DNA of 64,000 bases from Arthrobacter sp. PM3 (lineage in GTDB: Bacteria > Actinomycetota > Actinomycetes > Actinomycetales > Micrococcaceae), in assembly GCF_003352915.1 (NCBI RefSeq), contig NZ_CP022314.1, positions 4,033,611-4,097,610 of the forward strand. Direction: 5' to 3'. This document shows positions 1-63,326 of this stretch, piece after piece. Each line of letters begins with the position of its first letter. Within the stretch, counting starts at the first letter, position 1. The notes below the pieces were generated by a model. The model was not told the origin of the DNA, made no database searches, and saw only the letters and a program-made list of their open reading frames with translations. Made by a program: the position numbers and the translations under genes.

Positions 1-261
1 GTGTCCTGGCGTGTTCTGCTCGAGGACGCCGGCGCGGTCCAATCGATGTCCCGCAAGGGCAACTGCTACGACAACGCGGTCATGGAGAACTTCTTCGGCC
101 ACCTCAAGGAAGAACTCTTCCACCATGCCCGGTTCCCCGGCACCGACGCCCTGGCAACGGCCCTGAACGAGTACATCCGCTGGTACAACACCGAAAGAAT
201 CTCAACAAAACTCAAAGGCCTGAGCCCGGTCCAATACCGCGCCCAGACCCTCGCAGCTTAG
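1..261 (+). CDS. IS3-family transposase, C-terminal fragment (cut by window edge)
   Basis: This is the C-terminal 86 residues of an IS3-family OrfB transposase with the DDE (rve integrase) fold. Visible are the block SRKGNCYDNAVMENFFGHLK, whose Glu is the last acidic residue of the DDE triad, and the typical tail YIRWYNTERI...LSPVQYR. OrfB proteins are usually about 270-300 aa, so the catalytic Asp residues and the OrfA reading frame lie to the left of the window. The first base is simply the window edge and the GTG there is not evidence of a real start. Whether the element is complete cannot be judged. It acts in cut-and-paste or copy-out transposition of its own element. Confidence 0.9.
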   Translation: MSWRVLLEDAGAVQSMSRKGNCYDNAVMENFFGHLKEELFHHARFPGTDALATALNEYIRWYNTERISTKLKGLSPVQYRAQTLAA

Positions 262-299
262 GCTGTAACCAACCAGTCCAACAATCGGGGACCAGTTCA
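262..299 (+). mobile_element. Probable right end (inverted repeat) of the IS3-family element
   Basis: After the transposase stop, about 38 bp follow that read on the minus strand as TGAACTGGTCCCCGATTGTT and onward. That is a typical IS3-family terminal repeat beginning with TG. Position 299 is the likely last base, because homology to the second GCATGTCC array resumes exactly at 300. The left end is outside the window, so the repeat pair and any target duplication cannot be checked. Confidence 0.65.
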
Positions 300-460
300 G
301 CCGCACCGTGGGACATGCTCATTCCGGGCGGCGAAGACTGGACATTGTGGCCTTATGTCCAGCCGTCGGAACCACCAGAGGGCATGTCCAGAGAGGGGCC
401 TGGGCCACCGGAGGGTATGTCCAACCGCCGGATCCTCCACAGAGCATGTCCAGAGGCAGA
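300..460 (+). repeat. GCATGTCC array, locus 1 (abuts the IS end)
   Basis: There are four direct cores starting near 353, 382, 415 and 444, with spacings of 29, 33 and 29 bp. Two inverted cores (GGACAT at 311 and 340) are also 29 bp apart. Each core is a degenerate GCATGTCCAG with near-dyad RRRCATGYYY symmetry. The left 22 bp (300-321) match 62083-62104 of the second array at 20 of 22 positions. The array ends about 60-70 bp before the stop codon of the minus-strand DUF4395 gene. No protein-coding role is supported. Confidence 0.75.
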
Positions 461-2255: not shown

Positions 2256-3038
2256 GTGAACCCAATAGCAATGAGCGCCCTCGCCGTGCCCGCCTTCGGC
2301 GGCGCCGGACCCGTACAGCCGCAGCTGGCCTCCTTCCTGCCCGACTGGCTCAATCCGCAGGTTTTCCTGGCGAATCCGGCCTTCGCGCCGTGGGTGGTCC
2401 TGCTGATCTGCGGCATCATTTTTGCCGAGACCGGCCTGCTGATCGGCTTCTTCCTGCCGGGCGACTCCATGCTGTTCACGGCCGGGCTCCTCGTGGCTAC
2501 CGGCACCATCCAGGTCAACATCTGGGTCCTGACGGCGCTCATCATCATCGCCGCCATCATCGGCAACCAGGTGGGCTACCTGATCGGCTCCAAGGCCGGC
2601 CCTGCCCTGTTCAACAAGCCCGATTCGAAGCTGTTCAAGCGGGAAAACGTGGAAAACGCGCACGCCTTCTTCGAAAAGCACGGCGGCAAGGCCCTCATCC
2701 TGGCCCGCTTCGTCCCGATCATCCGCACGTTCGTCCCGGTGATCGTGGGCGTCGCGCAGATGAGCAAGCGCAAATTCTTCACCTACAACGTGATCGGCGC
2801 GGTCCTGTGGGGCGGCGGCGTCACCCTCCTGGGCTACCTGCTCGGGGACAAAGTGCCGTGGGTCCGGGACAACCTGGACATCATCTTCATCGCGATCGTG
2901 CTGGTCTCCGTGATCCCGATCGCCATCGAGGTCATCCGCGGCGCGGTCGCCAAGCGGCAGTCCGAGAAGTACGGCACCGACATCGTGGACGAATTCATCG
3001 AAGAGCACGAGCCCGAAGAGGAGCGCCGGACGCCCTGA
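2256..3038 (+). CDS. DedA family (VTT domain) membrane protein
   Basis: This 260-aa polytopic membrane protein carries the SNARE-associated/VTT domain. Typical signs are the ETGLLIGFFLPGDSML block near residues 60-78 and RFVPIIRTFVPVIVG near 145-160, which contains the Arg required in characterised DedA proteins. DedA proteins help move lipid carriers such as undecaprenyl phosphate, or other phospholipids, across the inner membrane and support proton-motive force. The cargo of this paralogue is not known. The C terminus is an acidic cytoplasmic tail. The gene stands alone, starts with GTG and probably has a leaderless mRNA. It converges with rdgB. Confidence 0.9.
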   Translation: MNPIAMSALAVPAFGGAGPVQPQLASFLPDWLNPQVFLANPAFAPWVVLLICGIIFAETGLLIGFFLPGDSMLFTAGLLVATGTIQVNIWVLTALIIIAAIIGNQVGYLIGSKAGPALFNKPDSKLFKRENVENAHAFFEKHGGKALILARFVPIIRTFVPVIVGVAQMSKRKFFTYNVIGAVLWGGGVTLLGYLLGDKVPWVRDNLDIIFIAIVLVSVIPIAIEVIRGAVAKRQSEKYGTDIVDEFIEEHEPEEERRTP

Positions 3039-3043
3039 CCGCC

Positions 3044-3062
3044 CGGGGCGGCTCACGCCCCG
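3044..3062. terminator. Possible GC-rich hairpin between convergent dedA and rdgB
   Basis: GGGGCG (3045-3050), GCTCA, CGCCCC (3056-3061) form a short stem in the 30-bp gap between two convergent stop codons. There is no T run, so termination is only a guess. Confidence 0.3.
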
Positions 3063-3068
3063 CCCCGC

Positions 3069-3740
3069 CTACGCGCCGGCCAGCGCCTCGACGATGGCCG
3101 GCAGGAGCGCCCGGAACGCGTGGCCGCGGTGGCTGATGGCGTTCTTCTCCTCGGCACTGAGTTCCGCGCAGCTGCGGTCCAGGCCGCTGGGCTGCAGGAC
3201 GGGGTCGTAGCCGAAACCGCCCGCCCCGCGGGGTTCGCGCAGGAGCATCCCTTCCAGCTGGCCGTATTCCACGACTTCGCGGCCGCCGTCGGGTCCTGCC
3301 CCGGGTACTGCCAGTGCCGCGGCGCAGACGAACGCGGCCCCGCGGTACTCGTCCGGCACATCGGCCAGCTGGGCCAGCAGCAGCCGCAGGTTCGCGGCGT
3401 CGTCGCCGTGCCGGCCGGACCAGCGCGCCGAGAAGATGCCGGGCGCGCCGCCGAGCACGTCGACGGCAAGGCCGGAGTCATCGGCAATCGCCACGAGCCC
3501 GGTGGCTTCCGCCACGGCCCGCGCCTTCAGGAGCGAATTTTCGGCGAACGTCACGCCGGTCTCGGCGACGTCGGGGGCGCCGGCAGCGCCGGCATCCACC
3601 ACCTGTGTGTCGACGTCGAGCCCGGGCACCTGCCCGCGCAGCAGTTCGCGCAGTTCGCGCAGCTTGCCCTTGTTGTGCGTGGCCAGGACGAGCCGGGGAG
3701 CCGGGGCACCGGCCGGGCCCGTGCCCGGGAGCCCGGTCAC
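3069..3740 (-). CDS. rdgB: RdgB/HAM1 dITP/XTP pyrophosphatase
   Basis: The 223-aa protein hydrolyses non-canonical purine nucleoside triphosphates (dITP, XTP, ITP) to monophosphates, keeping them out of DNA and RNA. Family motifs are [16 protein letters not shown] near residues 18-33, the [22 protein letters not shown] block with the catalytic Asp pair (about 85-105), and GGFGYDPV followed by SHRG(H)AFRALL at the C terminus. The first 14 residues are a Pro/Gly-rich extension. The start overlaps the rph stop by 4 bp (ATGA), so translation is coupled to RNase PH. The pairing rph-rdgB is common in actinobacteria. Confidence 0.95.
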
Positions 3741-4495
3741 GGTGCCTCGGCCAGGGTGTCGCGCTGGATCGCGGCCAGCTGCCCGGTGCCCAGCAGTGCC
3801 AGGTCCAGCAGCTGGTTCAGCTCGTCACGGTCGAACGGTGCGCCCTCCGCCGTGCCCTGGACCTCGACGAACTTCCCGGAGCCGGTCACCACAACGTTCA
3901 TGTCCGTCTCGGCGCGGACGTCCTCGACGTAGGGCAGGTCGAGCATCGGCACGCCGTCGATGATGCCGACCGACACCGCGGCGATGGTGTCGATGAGCGG
4001 CTCGGCGTTCTTAGCGATCATCTTCTTTTCGCGGGCAAAGCGGATGGCGTCCGCGAGCGCGACGTAGGCGCCGGTGATCGCCGCGGTGCGGGTGCCGCCG
4101 TCGGCCTGCAGGACATCGCAGTCCAGCACGATCGTGATTTCGCCGAGGGCCTTGGTGTCGATGATCGAGCGCAGCGAACGGCCAATCAGCCGGGAGATCT
4201 CGTGGGTGCGGCCGCCGATCTTCCCCTTGACCGATTCGCGGTCCGAGCGGGTGTTCGTCGCCCGCGGGAGCATGGCGTACTCGGCGGTGACCCAGCCGCG
4301 CCCCTCACCCTTGAGCCAGCGCGGCACGCCTTCCGTCAGGGAAGCGGTGCACAGGACACGGGTGTTGCCGAACTCGATCAGGGCCGAGCCTTCGGCCTGC
4401 TTGGACCAGCCGCGGGTGATGCTGATCGGCCGCAGCTGGTCGGCGGTGCGGCCGTCGGCGCGGATGACGGGGACAGAGGGAGCTTGGGAAGTCAT
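3737..4495 (-). CDS. rph: Ribonuclease PH
   Basis: This 252-aa phosphorolytic 3'-5' exoribonuclease trims the 3' ends of tRNA precursors. The length is usual for the family. Motifs: [13 protein letters not shown] at the N terminus, [16 protein letters not shown], the RSLR stretch and [18 protein letters not shown] with the catalytic and phosphate-binding residues. The ATG at 4495 is preceded by TAAGCT and a 6-nt gap, so a leaderless transcript is likely. It is the first gene of a two-gene rph-rdgB operon with a 4-bp overlap. Confidence 0.96.
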
Positions 4496-51486: not shown

Positions 51487-53151
51487 TTACATCCGTTCCG
51501 GCGCCGAGACGCCCAGCAGTTCCAGTCCGTTGGCCAGTACCTGGCTGGTGGCGTCGTTGAGCCACAGCCGGGTCCGGTTGGTGTCGGTGACGGGTTCCTC
51601 GCCCTGGGGCGCAACCCGGCAGGCGTCGTACCAGCGGTGGTAGGCGCCGGCAATGACTTCCAGGTGGCGGGCCACGCGGTGCGGCTCGCGCAGTTCGGCG
51701 GCTTTGGCCACCACGGAGGGGTAGCTGCCCAGGTGTGAAAGCAGCTCGTTTTCGGTGGCGTGGTCCAGCAGTGCCGCCTCGAAGCGGTCCTCACCGTCCA
51801 CGCGGCGCTCGACGCCGGCGGCCACGGCGTTGCGGGCGGCGCCGCGGGAGCGGGCGTGCGCGTACTGGACGTAGAACACCGGGTTTTCGTTGCTGTGCTT
51901 CTTCAGCAGCTCGGGGTCCAGGGTCAGCGGCGAGTCGGCGGGGAACCGGGCGAGCGAGTAGCGCACAGCGTCCTTGCCGAGCCAGTCGATGAGGTCCTTG
52001 AGCTCGATGATGTTGCCGGCGCGCTTGGACAACTTGGCGCCGTTGACCGAGACCAGCTGGCCGATCAGGACCTCGATGTTGACCTCGGGATCGTCGCCGG
52101 CGGCCGCGGCAATGGCCTTGAGCCGGTTGATGTAGCCGTGGTGGTCGGCGCCGAGGAGGTAGATCTTCTCGGTGAAGCCGCGGTCCTTCTTGGACAGGTA
52201 GTAGGCGGCGTCGGCCGCGAAGTAGGTCGGTTCGCCGTTGGCGCGGACCATCACGCGGTCCTTGTCGTCACCGAAGTCGGTGGTGCGCAGCCACACGGCG
52301 CCGCCGTCGTCAAAGACGTGGCCCTGCTCGCGGAGGCGGGCGACGGCATCCTCGATAGCGCCGGCGTCGTGAAGCTCCTGCTCGGAGAAGAAGACATCGA
52401 AGTCGACGCCGAACGCGGCCAGCGTCTGCTTGATGTCGTGCATCTGCGCCTTGTACGCGGCTCCCCGGATCACCGGCAGGGCCGCGACCTCGGTGAGTTC
52501 ACGGATCCCGGGGTGCTCGCTGAGCACCTCGTGGCCGAGGTCGGCGATGTACTGGCCCGGGTAGCCGCCCTCGGGCACGTCCCGGCCGTGCAGCCGCGCG
52601 TACACGGAGTTGGCGAAGACGTTCATCTGGGAGCCGGCGTCGTTGATGTAGTACTCAGCGGTGACGTCGGCGCCGGAGGCCCTCAGGACGCGGGCGATCG
52701 CGTCGCCAAGGGCGGCCCAGCGGGTGTGGCCGATGTGCAACGGGCCGGTGGGGTTGGCCGAGACGAACTCCATGTTCACGACATGGCCGGCGAGCGCGGT
52801 GTTGGTGCCGTAGTCCGCTCCCGCCTCGACGATGACCTTGGCCAGGGCGCCGGCGGCAGCGGCGTCCACCGTAATGTTCAGGAAGCCCGGGCCGGCGATG
52901 TCCACGGCAGACACACCGTCGATCATTTTCAGCCGGTCGCTGAGGACGGACGCGAACTGCCGCGGGTTGGTCCCGGCGGTCTTGGCCAGCTGGAGGGCGA
53001 CGTTGGTGGCCCAGTCTCCGTGGTCCCTGTTCTTGGGGCGCTCGACGCGCACCTCTTCCGGGAGGTCGGCAGCGGAAAGGGCGATGTCACCAGCCGCGAC
53101 GGCGTCCTTCAGGCAGGCGGAAATGGCGAGGGAGAGTTCTTCTGGGGTCAC
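51487..53151 (-). CDS. argS: Arginyl-tRNA synthetase
   Basis: The 554-aa class I synthetase charges tRNA-Arg. Visible are the HIGH motif in NPTGPLHIGHTRWAALGDAI, the N-terminal Add-1 domain (about 1-110), and KLSKRAGN in the KMSKS position. The C-terminal DALR anticodon-binding domain starts near 435 (NPVFYVQYAHARSRG). The GTG start at 53151 has TAGGCT 6 nt upstream. It heads the argS-lysA-hom-thrC-thrB operon and diverges from a tRNA-Arg gene 184 bp away. Confidence 0.96.
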   Translation of the reverse strand: MTPEELSLAISACLKDAVAAGDIALSAADLPEEVRVERPKNRDHGDWATNVALQLAKTAGTNPRQFASVLSDRLKMIDGVSAVDIAGPGFLNITVDAAAAGALAKVIVEAGADYGTNTALAGHVVNMEFVSANPTGPLHIGHTRWAALGDAIARVLRASGADVTAEYYINDAGSQMNVFANSVYARLHGRDVPEGGYPGQYIADLGHEVLSEHPGIRELTEVAALPVIRGAAYKAQMHDIKQTLAAFGVDFDVFFSEQELHDAGAIEDAVARLREQGHVFDDGGAVWLRTTDFGDDKDRVMVRANGEPTYFAADAAYYLSKKDRGFTEKIYLLGADHHGYINRLKAIAAAAGDDPEVNIEVLIGQLVSVNGAKLSKRAGNIIELKDLIDWLGKDAVRYSLARFPADSPLTLDPELLKKHSNENPVFYVQYAHARSRGAARNAVAAGVERRVDGEDRFEAALLDHATENELLSHLGSYPSVVAKAAELREPHRVARHLEVIAGAYHRWYDACRVAPQGEEPVTDTNRTRLWLNDATSQVLANGLELLGVSAPERM

Positions 53152-60357: not shown

Positions 60358-60786
60358 CTAGGCGGCCGGGACGTGCTCCGCGTGGCCCGCCTTCCGCAGG
60401 CCCTCGCGGAGTTTCTCCGCGTTGGCGTCCAGGCGGGCCGGATCCGGGTGCTGGTCCACCGAGCCGAAATCGAAGTCCGCCATCGAGTTCGACGGCCACA
60501 CGTGCACATGCATGTGGTTGATTTCGTAGCCGGCCACGATCAGGCCGGCCCGGGCGGCGTCGAACACGTCCACCTGGACGGCACCGATCTTGCGGGCGAC
60601 GTCCATGACCCGGCCGAGAACCTCGGGAGTAGCGTCGGTCCAGCGGTCCACTTCCTCGGTGGGCACCACGAGGGTGTGGCCGTCGGCCAGCGGGCCCACG
60701 GTCAGGAACGCCACGACGTCGTCCTCGCGCCAGACGAAGCGGCCGGGGATCTCGCCGTTGATGATTTTCGTGAAGAGAGTGCTCAT
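60358..60786 (-). CDS. HIT family protein
   Basis: The 142-aa histidine-triad hydrolase has the N-terminal FTKIINGEIPGRFVW and the catalytic HMHVHVWP (His-x-His-x-His-x) near residue 96. It hydrolyses nucleotide conjugates such as AMP-lysine or adenosine-5'-phosphoramidate. A Glu/Ala-rich helix forms the C terminus. Its ATG overlaps the ADH stop by 4 bp (ATGA), so it is translated with the dehydrogenase. It converges with hrpA 5 bp away. Confidence 0.94.
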   Translation of the reverse strand: MSTLFTKIINGEIPGRFVWREDDVVAFLTVGPLADGHTLVVPTEEVDRWTDATPEVLGRVMDVARKIGAVQVDVFDAARAGLIVAGYEINHMHVHVWPSNSMADFDFGSVDQHPDPARLDANAEKLREGLRKAGHAEHVPAA

Positions 60787-61952
60787 GCGTCCGCCTTTTC
60801 TGCCGGGGACCCCAGGGTGCTGGCGTCCAGGACAAAACGGTACTTTACATCGCCGGCCACCATGCGGTCGTACGCTTCGTTGAGCTGGTCCGCCGTGACC
60901 ACTTCGACGTCGGACACCACGCCGTGTTCGGCGCAGAAGTCCAGCATCTCCTGGGTTTCCGCGATCCCGCCGATGAGTGAACCGGCGTAGGCGATCCGGC
61001 GCCGGATCAGTGCGCCGGGGTTGACCGGAGGCATCGCTTCCGAGGGCAGTCCCAGCTGGAACAGCGCCCCGTCCAGGCGCAGCGTGCGGAAGTACGGGTT
61101 GAGGTCGTGCGGCGCGGCGACGGTGTCGATGATGACGTCGATGCTCCGGTTCGCGGCCTCCATCGCGGCCGGGTCCGTGGAGAGGATGACGTCGTCGGCG
61201 CCCAGTTCGCGGGCAGCGGCGAACTTCTTTTCCGACGTCGTGAAGACCTTCACCTCGGCCCCCATGGCCTTGGCGATCTTCACGGCCATGTGGCCGAGGC
61301 CGCCAAGTCCGACAACGCCGACGACGTCGCCTTCCTCGACCTCGAAGTGGTTCAAGGGCGAATAGGTGGTGATGCCGGCGCAGAGCAGGGGCGCCGCGGC
61401 GGCGGGGTCCAGGCTTTCCGGGACGCGCAGGACGTAGTTGCGGTCCACGACGATCGAGGTGGCGTACCCGCCTTGGGTGATGGCGCCGCCGTTGCGGGCG
61501 TCCCTGGCCCCGTACGTTCCCACCATGCCGTTCTCGCAGTACTGCTCGAGCCCGTCCAGGCAGCTCTCGCATTCGCGGCAGGAATCCACCATGCAGCCCA
61601 CGCCCACGCGCTCCCCCACCGTGAAATCGTCGACGGCGGAACCCACCCGGGTGACCCGGCCGACGATCTCGTGGCCCGGGATCAGCGGGTACGTGTCGCC
61701 GCCCCATTCGCCGCGGGTGGCGTGCACGTCCGAGTGGCAGAGGCCGCAGAACTCGATGGCGATCTCGACGTCGTCCTCCTTGGGCGCCCGGCGGGAGACC
61801 GTCAGCGGGACAAGCCCGCTATCCGGCGCGGTGGCGCCGTACGCGGCGGCCAGGGTGGGGCCGGCGGTGTTGGCGGACTTGGCGGCGCCCCCGTCCTCGA
61901 CGTCGGGAAGCGGCTTGGCAAAGGGCGGCGGTACGGGGCGTCCTGGAGTCAT
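60783..61952 (-). CDS. Zinc NAD(P)-dependent alcohol dehydrogenase (YahK/CAD-like)
   Basis: The 389-aa MDR-family enzyme has catalytic-zinc CGLCHSDVHATRGEWGG and GHEIVGRV, the structural-zinc four-Cys loop (SCRECESCLDGLEQYC), and the coenzyme motif GLGGLGHMAVKIAKAMG. It most resembles cinnamyl-alcohol/aldehyde reductases of the YahK type. The N-terminal 40 residues are a low-complexity extension. The ATG at 61952 has TAGCGT 7 nt upstream. It heads a two-gene operon with the HIT gene. Confidence 0.93.
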   Translation of the reverse strand: MTPGRPVPPPFAKPLPDVEDGGAAKSANTAGPTLAAAYGATAPDSGLVPLTVSRRAPKEDDVEIAIEFCGLCHSDVHATRGEWGGDTYPLIPGHEIVGRVTRVGSAVDDFTVGERVGVGCMVDSCRECESCLDGLEQYCENGMVGTYGARDARNGGAITQGGYATSIVVDRNYVLRVPESLDPAAAAPLLCAGITTYSPLNHFEVEEGDVVGVVGLGGLGHMAVKIAKAMGAEVKVFTTSEKKFAAARELGADDVILSTDPAAMEAANRSIDVIIDTVAAPHDLNPYFRTLRLDGALFQLGLPSEAMPPVNPGALIRRRIAYAGSLIGGIAETQEMLDFCAEHGVVSDVEVVTADQLNEAYDRMVAGDVKYRFVLDASTLGSPAEKADA

Positions 61953-61959
61953 GATCCCG

Positions 61960-61965
61960 ACGCTA
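61960..61965 (-). promoter_or_regulatory. -10 box TAGCGT for leaderless ADH-HIT mRNA
   Basis: TAGCGT plus a 7-nt gap (CGGGATC) precedes the ATG at 61952. Confidence 0.45.
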
Positions 61966-62082
61966 CCCCCGTGACCGGTTCCCATGCCACTTGGACCTGT
62001 GGCCCCCCGCACGCCGGGGCCTCGTGGTCCCCGCAACACCGCCCCGTTCCCGGTGCCCGGCGGGGACACCCTTGCGGGGCCC

Positions 62083-62429
62083 GCCGCCCCGCGGGACATG
62101 CTCAGTGGTGAACTCAAGGAGTGGGCATATGCCCCAAGTGTCCAGTGTTCAGAGCAAGCACTGGACATGCTCCTGGTCCGGAGCCACGTCCGGGGCGCAT
62201 GTCCAGCGGCAGAGCCCACGACGGAGCATTCCCAGTGGTTCCGACGAGGCCGAGGAAGCATGTCCAGCCGCGGGGTCCACGGCGGAGCATGTCCCTTGCC
62301 TGAACCCAGACTCGGGGAGCATGTCCAGTGCTGCGGACGAGCCCGAGGGGGCATGCCCAGCCGGGGAGGCCAAGACGGAGCATGTCCCTTGCCTTAGCCC
62401 AGACTCGGGGAGCATGTCCAGCGGTGAAC
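62083..62429 (+). repeat. GCATGTCC array, locus 2
   Basis: Eight direct cores start at 62197, 62226, 62258, 62287, 62319, 62351, 62380 and 62412, with spacings 29, 32, 29, 32, 32, 29 and 32 bp. Cores vary as GCATGTCCAG, GCATGTCCCT, GCATTCCCAG and GCATGCCCAG. To the left are inverted cores (GGACAT at 62094 and 62163, GGGCAT at 62123). A 9-bp inverted repeat TGTCCAGTG/CACTGGACA spans 62139-62167. The array fills most of the 477-bp gap between ADH and sulfurtransferase and ends 8 bp before the sulfurtransferase stop. The rest of the gap (61966-62082) is GC-rich with nothing recognised. Confidence 0.9.
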
Positions 62430-63326
62430 CTAGGAGACGCTGCCCGTGGACCTTCCGGCCGCAGTTTCAACGTCCTCGCCGTACGGTGCCTCGCCGGTGA
62501 CAACGTCACGCGCGGCATCATGGCACCACTCGGAGAACGAACCGGGATACAGGGCAGCGGCAAAGCCGGCAATCTCAAGGGCGGCAATTTCGTGGGCGGC
62601 CGTCACGCCGGAGCCGCAGTACACGGCGGTCGGGACGTCGGACCGGTAGCCGAGCCGCTCGAAGCGCTCCCGCAGCTCCGCCGGGCCCAGAAAGCGGCCG
62701 TCAGCCTGCAGATTGCCGGTGGTGGGGGCACTGACGGCACCGGGAATGTGGCCCGCGCGGGGATCCACGGGCTCGACTTCCCCGCGGTACCGCTCCCCCG
62801 CCCGGGCGTCGAGCAAAAGCCCGTACCGGCTCCAGGACGCGGCCTGCCCGGCGTCGATCGCGGGCATGGCGCCGGCAGACAGCGTGACATTGCCTGCTGG
62901 GGGCTGCTCGGCCCCGGCGGCCAGGCCGAACCCTGCCTCACGCCAGGCGGCCAGGCCGCCGTCGAGCAGCTGAACCGGACCGAAGCCGGCGTCGCGCAGC
63001 ATCCACCAGACCCGGGCGGCGGCCATGTTGCCGCTGTCGTCATACGCCACGACGGCGTCGCCGTCGCTGATGCCCCAGCGGCGAGCGCACTCCTGGAACT
63101 GCTCCGCCGGAGGCAGGGGATGCCGTCCGCGCCCCGGTTCCGCGGGTCCGGCGAGTTCGGTGGCAAGGTCCACGAAGACCGCGCCGGGGATATGTCCGTG
63201 CAGATAGTGGTCGTGGCCGTGCGGGTCACCCAGCGTCCAGCGAACATCGAGGAGCACGGTGCGCTGGCCGCTTTCGCGGTCGTCCAGCCGGCTCTTGAGG
63301 GCGGCGGCATCGATGAGGGTGTCCAT
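62430..63326 (-). CDS. Tandem-rhodanese sulfurtransferase
   Basis: The 298-aa thiosulfate/3-mercaptopyruvate sulfurtransferase type protein has two rhodanese domains. The N-terminal one has VAYDDSGNMAA, an Asp in place of the Cys, so it is inactive. The C-terminal one has AVYCGSGVTAAHEIAAL with the catalytic Cys, in the CGSGVTA loop of the mercaptopyruvate type. ATG 63326 has TAGAGT 6 nt upstream. It diverges from the Cds1-like gene 48 bp away, and the two share sulfur chemistry. The 3' end touches the GCATGTCC array. Confidence 0.93.
   Translation of the reverse strand: MDTLIDAAALKSRLDDRESGQRTVLLDVRWTLGDPHGHDHYLHGHIPGAVFVDLATELAGPAEPGRGRHPLPPAEQFQECARRWGISDGDAVVAYDDSGNMAAARVWWMLRDAGFGPVQLLDGGLAAWREAGFGLAAGAEQPPAGNVTLSAGAMPAIDAGQAASWSRYGLLLDARAGERYRGEVEPVDPRAGHIPGAVSAPTTGNLQADGRFLGPAELRERFERLGYRSDVPTAVYCGSGVTAAHEIAALEIAGFAAALYPGSFSEWCHDAARDVVTGEAPYGEDVETAAGRSTGSVS

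Follow-up and report, generated by a model that had tools for sequence, protein, structure and literature searches.

The usual view of interspersed repeats in bacterial genomes is that they are selfish elements or hairpins. CRISPR arrays, for their part, consist of identical repeats of roughly 24-47 bp and unrelated spacers. The arrays described here do not fit that pattern: only 8-10 bp of their unit are conserved, and cores occur in both orientations. A nearer kind is found in the STAR elements of staphylococci, in which a 14-bp consensus, T(G/A/T)TGTTG(G/T)GGCCC(C/A), recurs at least 40 bp apart (PMC3532100). As far as the accessible text of that source goes, STAR elements and our arrays share a short conserved core, variable spacers, intergenic location and a spread over tens of loci, as well as varying copy number, patchy occurrence within a genus and the lack of an assigned function. 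REP and BIME elements offer a second parallel in the accessible parts of their descriptions, being likewise extragenic, multi-copy, near-palindromic, present in both orientations and targeted by insertion sequences (PMC12306157, PMC3733652, PMC1525189).

The array that drew our attention, built on the core GCATGTCC, lies in a 64,000-nucleotide stretch of DNA (the window), positions 4033611-4097610 of the 4.35-Mb single-contig genome of Arthrobacter sp. PM3 (G000). The initial annotation of the window considered it unlike any described repeat class, which is too strong given STAR elements; the literature accessible to us contained no published description of GCATGTCC arrays, and none of a second core, GTGAGRGAGCGT, discussed below.

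Anatomy of the array and of its genome-wide family

The window contains the following features.

1..299, plus strand: right end of an IS3-type insertion sequence, with the end of orfB at 1-261
311..451, no strand: second GCATGTCC-family array, centre at 340-360
60783..61952, minus strand: flanking zinc-type alcohol dehydrogenase gene (start codon of our choosing)
62078..62429, no strand: whole array, from reading of the sequence and paralogue alignment
62094..62101, minus strand: inverted core, exact GCATGTCC
62123..62143, no strand: central inverted element GGGCATAT-n5-AAGTGTCC, laid out as in the central units of the genome
62163..62170, minus strand: inverted core, exact GCATGTCC
62197..62204, plus strand: direct core, exact GCATGTCC
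62226..62233, plus strand: direct core, degenerate GCATTCCC, two mismatches
62258..62265, plus strand: direct core, exact GCATGTCC
62287..62294, plus strand: direct core, exact GCATGTCC
62319..62326, plus strand: direct core, exact GCATGTCC
62351..62358, plus strand: direct core GCATGCCC, one mismatch
62380..62387, plus strand: direct core, exact GCATGTCC
62412..62419, plus strand: direct core, exact GCATGTCC, ending 10 bp from the sulfurtransferase stop codon
62430..63326, minus strand: flanking sulfurtransferase gene with two rhodanese-domain stretches

The eight direct cores reported by the initial annotation are all present, six of them exact, with steps of 29, 32, 29, 32, 32, 29 and 32 bp (mean 30.7). 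Its inverted copies on the left correspond to the two exact inverted cores at 62094 and 62163, and the array does adjoin the sulfurtransferase stop codon (62430-62432). That annotation mentioned neither the central inverted element, which stands 29 bp away from the first of the two inverted cores, nor the second array, whose cores begin at 311 (minus strand), 382, 415 (one mismatch) and 444. The window as a whole holds 14 copies of GCATGTCC where 3.09 are expected, a count reached in 0 of 100 shuffles, and eight of the 14 exact copies are packed within 326 bp. No Rfam 15 covariance model matched 61900-62700 at E<=1, ruling out a known structured RNA family for this array.

Across the PM3 genome, close pairs, defined as two cores with 6-71 bases between them, number 139 (67 forward, 72 reverse), compared with two (0 and 2) for the reversed control, which dispels the concern raised at the outset that the motif might occur elsewhere at random frequency and spacing. 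We fetched 20 stretches (184,520 bases) around such pairs, chosen among about 100 listed pair places; together with the window they contain 27 clusters of at least three cores, referred to here as arrays. All 27 are intergenic according to our simple gene caller, three of them overlapping the end of a called gene by 6, 18 and 37 bp. Of 94 steps between consecutive exact cores on the same strand, 41 measure 29 or 32 bp and 56 fall at 28-34 bp, with steps of 22-23, 31, 34 and 40 bp present as well. The DNA helix makes one turn in about 10.5 bp. The early suggestion that sites lie on nearly the same face is borne out insofar as 29 and 32 bp are close to three turns, but it is approximate, because these steps average 2.9 turns and others also occur.

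The arrays have a conserved polarity. From a single split point, 168 of 175 exact cores point outward (order-shuffled mean 143.6, maximum 153, 2000 trials), and 26 of the 27 arrays carry cores in both orientations, with arms that are sometimes very unequal (e.g., 13 versus 1) and units that have been tandemly duplicated. The profile over 247 sites reads G-R-G-C-A-T-G-Y-C-C; position C8 is invariant in all 247, and T6C, a change that leaves the purine/pyrimidine pattern RRRCATGYYY intact, accounts for 41 of the 72 single mismatches. We collected 96 central units, distinct by exact sequence and selected by outer cores 71 bp apart with at most one mismatch each. Most contain an inner pair, GG(A/G)CA...TG(T/C)CC, 29 bp inward of each outer core. 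Pairing at their spacer positions 11-16 is 0.10-0.48, below the 0.30-0.55 expected from column make-up, because the two sides tend to TCATTCTT and GGGAGG (top strand). Two spacer types alternate in the arrays. The unit is therefore not a plain hairpin, and with the spacer pairs beside the core anti-complementary, we rejected a simple hairpin element.

The gene end nearest to an array is a stop in 20 of 27 cases. In the fetched stretches, gaps with an array comprise 16 tandem, 8 convergent and 3 divergent gene pairs, and array-free gaps of at least 60 bp comprise 46, 14 and 26. Over all loci, from PM3 and other genomes, we gathered 119 array clusters, or 110 once identical ones were removed; distinct clusters with both neighbours called lie in 53 tandem, 38 convergent and 11 divergent gaps. 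Just one of the 110, from Nannocystis, is more than half inside a called gene. The arrays are thus not coding sequence, the other outcome against which the initial annotation had warned. No common pathway is apparent among the flanking genes. By eye, a conserved five-core array at three loci (L181 2078-2215, L182, L183) seems to overlap a possible N-terminal coding part.

The window array has a relative within the same genome. Positions 62078-62328 are homologous, gap-free over 251 bp and at 75% identity, to 2375422-2375672, which of the remaining 26 arrays matches it best. Between the two, 46 of 48 core positions and 143 of 203 spacer positions are alike, and 4 of 250 shifts do as well. Judged by this alignment, the window array was copied long ago from the one at 2.375 Mb and has since diverged. 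The highest-scoring pair among all 27 arrays is itself 75% identical (among the best 14 of 233 hits), so that these hits include no recent long copy.

Mobile elements adjoin the arrays. The IS3-type element that opens the window has five copies in the genome (L176-L180), and one copy was found to encode rve, HTH_21 and an HTH protein. All five right ends abut GCATGTCC arrays, and the four readable left ends lie near a core, the fifth being masked; a role as insertion target, as first proposed, thus holds as a secondary trait. A matching base triplet stands on both sides of three copies and not of one; in the window, GCC at 300-302 equals the triplet before the element's left end. Of 206 genus genomes, 72 carry relatives of the element, and some of these 72 have no GCATGTCC arrays. 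Among 30 loci of such relatives, 3 lie in GCATGTCC arrays and about 8 (by eye) in arrays of the second family. This element and Y1 transposase were the two examined for co-occurrence with arrays. Y1 transposase of the RAYT type (PF01797) is absent from the PM3 genome and was detected in 2 of 206 genus genomes, one of them above the cut-off, by a search positive in 5 of 14 control genomes. Mobilization of the RAYT/REPIN kind is accordingly unlikely in PM3.

Distribution, shared junctions and core conservation

In a sample of 120 genomes from the family, 24 had a match to paired GCATGTCC cores, including four of the six from the genus of the window (105, 9, 4 and 1 pairs). Outside the genus, 20 of 114 genomes had 1 to 3 pairs, and three cores in a row occurred in G116 only, in what by eye is a simple tandem repeat; we therefore rejected arrays in other genera. 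Within the genus, 71 of 206 genomes had a match and 50 had at least four pairs, a level confined to this genus in the scans made. A scan by name that used a longer pattern gave 40 stretches; 39 were from Arthrobacter, and one, inside a called gene, was from Nannocystis. A phage origin was also rejected: among 80 listed of at least 120 viral stretches, 19 passed the cluster filter, and these were coding or simple tandem repeats by eye.

Clustering the 119 clusters by flanking genes revealed that the same gene junctions bear arrays in different species. In PM3, domains place purD, purH, an S1-domain protein (taken as rpsA by length and domains) and groES at such junctions; lysC and others were named by eye. 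For purD, we looked at another 30 genomes of our own choice, of which 11 have arrays elsewhere and 19 do not. The junction carries an array in all 12 array-bearing genomes examined (PM3 included). Counted from the purD start, the first core begins at base 31 in 11 of them, including the distant G149, and at base 73 in G222. None of the 19 genomes without arrays elsewhere has one: 18 show a short gap, with the same neighbour gene in 15 and another in 3, and G288 retains one degenerate core. At the array centre, pairing is lost in several species while GGACA and TGTCC are retained (by eye). This array (L158 16418-16999; L321-L350) lies between divergent genes, and its base-31 core is near a would-be -35 element.

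On a purD tree of these 31 author-picked genomes, the array-bearers fall in one clade of 13 rows plus the distant G149. Three changes suffice to explain the GCATGTCC arrays, a number matched by 0 of 500 shuffles. G285 and G288 sit inside the 13-row clade and have no core pair.

Orthologous arrays allow cores and spacers to be compared directly. In 12 comparisons among six clade-2 genomes, 425 of 432 core positions and 1161 of 1374 spacer positions are conserved, so that change at these selected orthologous places is about tenfold lower in cores. The comparisons used 16 of 20 loci, picked as their arrays looked shared, with four purD junctions left out; they share reference rows, and cores were defined in the reference row alone. 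Taken singly, five are not significant by shift (203/270, 66/110, 33/159, 24/78 and 16/78).

Individual arrays are dispensable, since the window array is missing at the dehydrogenase-sulfurtransferase junction of five relatives (L133, L136, L151, L152 and L154), where the gaps span 12 to 374 bp. Likewise, no array stands beside the sulfurtransferase gene at 29 relatives' loci, several of which end before the junction and others of which have a different neighbour. Three small loose matches at L144, about 100 bp behind the sulfurtransferase gene at the start of the next gene, were taken as chance. In L127, a DUF222/HNH gene (2391-3812; Pfam, this locus only) directly follows the orthologous sulfurtransferase gene, at the junction that holds the array in the window, and similar DUF222/HNH-like genes were seen by eye behind the sulfurtransferase gene in several of L128-L153.

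The genus harbours a second core family, GTGAGRGAGCGT, with pairs in 126 of 206 genus genomes and in 0 of 114 genomes of other genera. It resembles the GCATGTCC family in its genus, similar step, intergenic location and inverted-left, direct-right arrangement; its core is different and non-palindromic, and other lineages of the genus often carry it. Of 29 same-strand steps counted over 16 distinct clusters, 27 measure precisely 32 bp. Every one of these 16 clusters is intergenic; both neighbours could be called for 13 of them, and 8 of those lie in convergent gaps. In each of the nine mixed clusters, the inverted copies stand to the left of the direct ones. Their spacers often have a mid A/T run of four or five (by eye; e.g., L381-L399). 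The PM3 genome has 12 GTGAGRGAGCGT pairs, with sites at 51679-51722, 52906-52981 and 2221359-2221466. Over the 206 genomes, kinship ignored, counts of the two families are anti-correlated, and GTGAGRGAGCGT-rich genomes are mostly without GCATGTCC arrays: of those with at least four GCATGTCC pairs, 5 of 50 have at least ten GTGAGRGAGCGT pairs and 25 of 50 at least one, compared with 61 of 156 having at least ten where GCATGTCC pairs number three or fewer. At most one pair of either family is present in 64 of the 206, so the genus as a whole needs no such system.

A third core, TTGAGCYTGTCGAAA, recurs 33 to 36 bp apart in G131 (L419, 15255-15335) and G009 (L420, 1501-1551); in G009, it occupies the sulfurtransferase-dehydrogenase junction where the window has its GCATGTCC array. 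A search for 8-mer pairs over 200 kb each yielded nothing clear in G225 and TTGAGCYTGTCGAAA units in one stretch of G131. As a class-wide core TTGAGCYTGTCGAAA was rejected, appearing in one of 296 genomes, from the same genus.

Proposed recognition by a protein and its rivals

Of the three roles first put forward for the array, namely multi-site binding, a 3'-end RNA structure and an insertion target, multi-site binding is the best supported, because cores are conserved over spacers. We therefore tentatively read the GCATGTCC arrays as recognition arrays of a DNA-binding protein, placed mostly near gene 3' ends, with a rough probability of 0.47. Each site is the 10-bp near-palindrome GRGCATGYCC, set with conserved polarity about three helical turns from the next and pointing outward from the central inverted element. 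A putative sequence-specific protein, probably a dimer, would read these sites and bind neighbouring ones cooperatively. Beside a gene 3' end, the bound array may serve as a local roadblock or boundary, stopping read-through transcription for instance, or may anchor the nucleoid. Core constraint, the narrow mismatch spectrum, the preferred steps and the pairless G285 and G288 all favour such a trans-acting reader; the state of the latter two genomes is as expected if the reader was lost.

An alternative, which we consider unlikely, is that the arrays serve as folded 3' ends. Complementary cores of the two arms would pair interchangeably into a long hairpin, in a transcript or in single-stranded or cruciform DNA, and this hairpin would protect or terminate mRNAs, a role that has been suggested for REP/BIME elements. 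The mixed orientation of cores in 26 of 27 arrays and the outward rule are consistent with this idea, as is the stop as nearest gene end of most arrays. Arrays also fold more stably than their shuffles (median z -4.1 for the 27, versus -1.3 for 30 other intergenic stretches), as the inverted cores require. Central-unit columns 37-43 covary (0.52 observed, 0.29 expected), as do columns 27-53 (0.55 versus 0.45), and a few copies have long perfect hairpins of differing sequence (by eye). The inverted layout of the non-palindromic GTGAGRGAGCGT family (nine of nine mixed clusters) and the insertion of some IS relatives beside other gene-end palindromes (by eye) point the same way. Against folding stand the low complementarity of spacer positions 11-16, the very unequal arms and the loss of centre pairing in several species that retain GGACA/TGTCC. 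Moreover, changes in the last two C that wobble pairing would permit are rare (4 of 494 positions), yet C2T occurs eight times.

We are similarly doubtful that the arrays are a selfish or hitch-hiking repeat, copied between intergenic sites through recombination or by some transposase and lengthened by slippage, with no benefit to the host. Such a history could account for the patchy, clade-wise distribution, the derivation of the window array from the 2.375-Mb array, the tandem duplication of units, the short array-free purD gap that 15 genomes show next to an unchanged neighbour gene and the avoidance of divergent gene pairs (3 of 27 gaps with an array, 26 of 86 without). It sits poorly with the orthologous comparison, in which cores changed roughly one-tenth as much as spacers, with the 75% identity of the top pair and with the scarcity of Y1 transposase; nor could a target-site duplication be established for any array. 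That the arrays exist only as landing sites for the IS3-type element is very improbable: all five copies abut arrays, but at least 27 arrays face those five, related elements extend to array-free genomes, and array-bearing G120, G143 and G144 lack a match to it at E<=1e-30.

Returning to the protein-read arrays, we speculate that they belong to a swappable addressing system, an extension we rate as improbable. Lineage-specific core words (GCATGTCC, GTGAGRGAGCGT and perhaps TTGAGCYTGTCGAAA), each with its own reader, would mark gene ends or organize the nucleoid, and once a reader was lost, every array built on its word would decay. At housekeeping junctions (purD, purH, rpsA-like, groES), the constraint on cores, the regularity of the steps and the outward polarity point to a reader, and the pairless G285 and G288 within the array clade make the search for it a direct genome comparison. 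A reader would offer a natural system in which to follow the origin, spread and replacement of a binding-site code that spans a chromosome.

Comparison with REP/BIME and STAR elements

Set against the accessible descriptions of REP/BIME, the arrays differ in that the PM3 genome lacks Y1/RAYT, the unit is no self-contained stem-loop, steps are regular and outward polarity is conserved. A single unit is a near-palindrome of 10 bp that has no loop, unlike the stem-loop unit of REP elements. Inspection of the unit profile revealed neither a GTAG nor a CGTC terminal tetranucleotide. As interspersed intergenic direct repeats, the arrays are STAR-like, yet they are not STAR elements proper, their core being GRGCATGYCC at mostly 29/32 bp. 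According to the accessible text on STAR (PMC3532100), those elements combine a 14-bp core with a 40-44-bp spacer and share no neighbourhood between two species, whereas GCATGTCC arrays have an 8-10-bp core at mostly 29/32-bp steps, cores that point outward from a centre and places common to several species.
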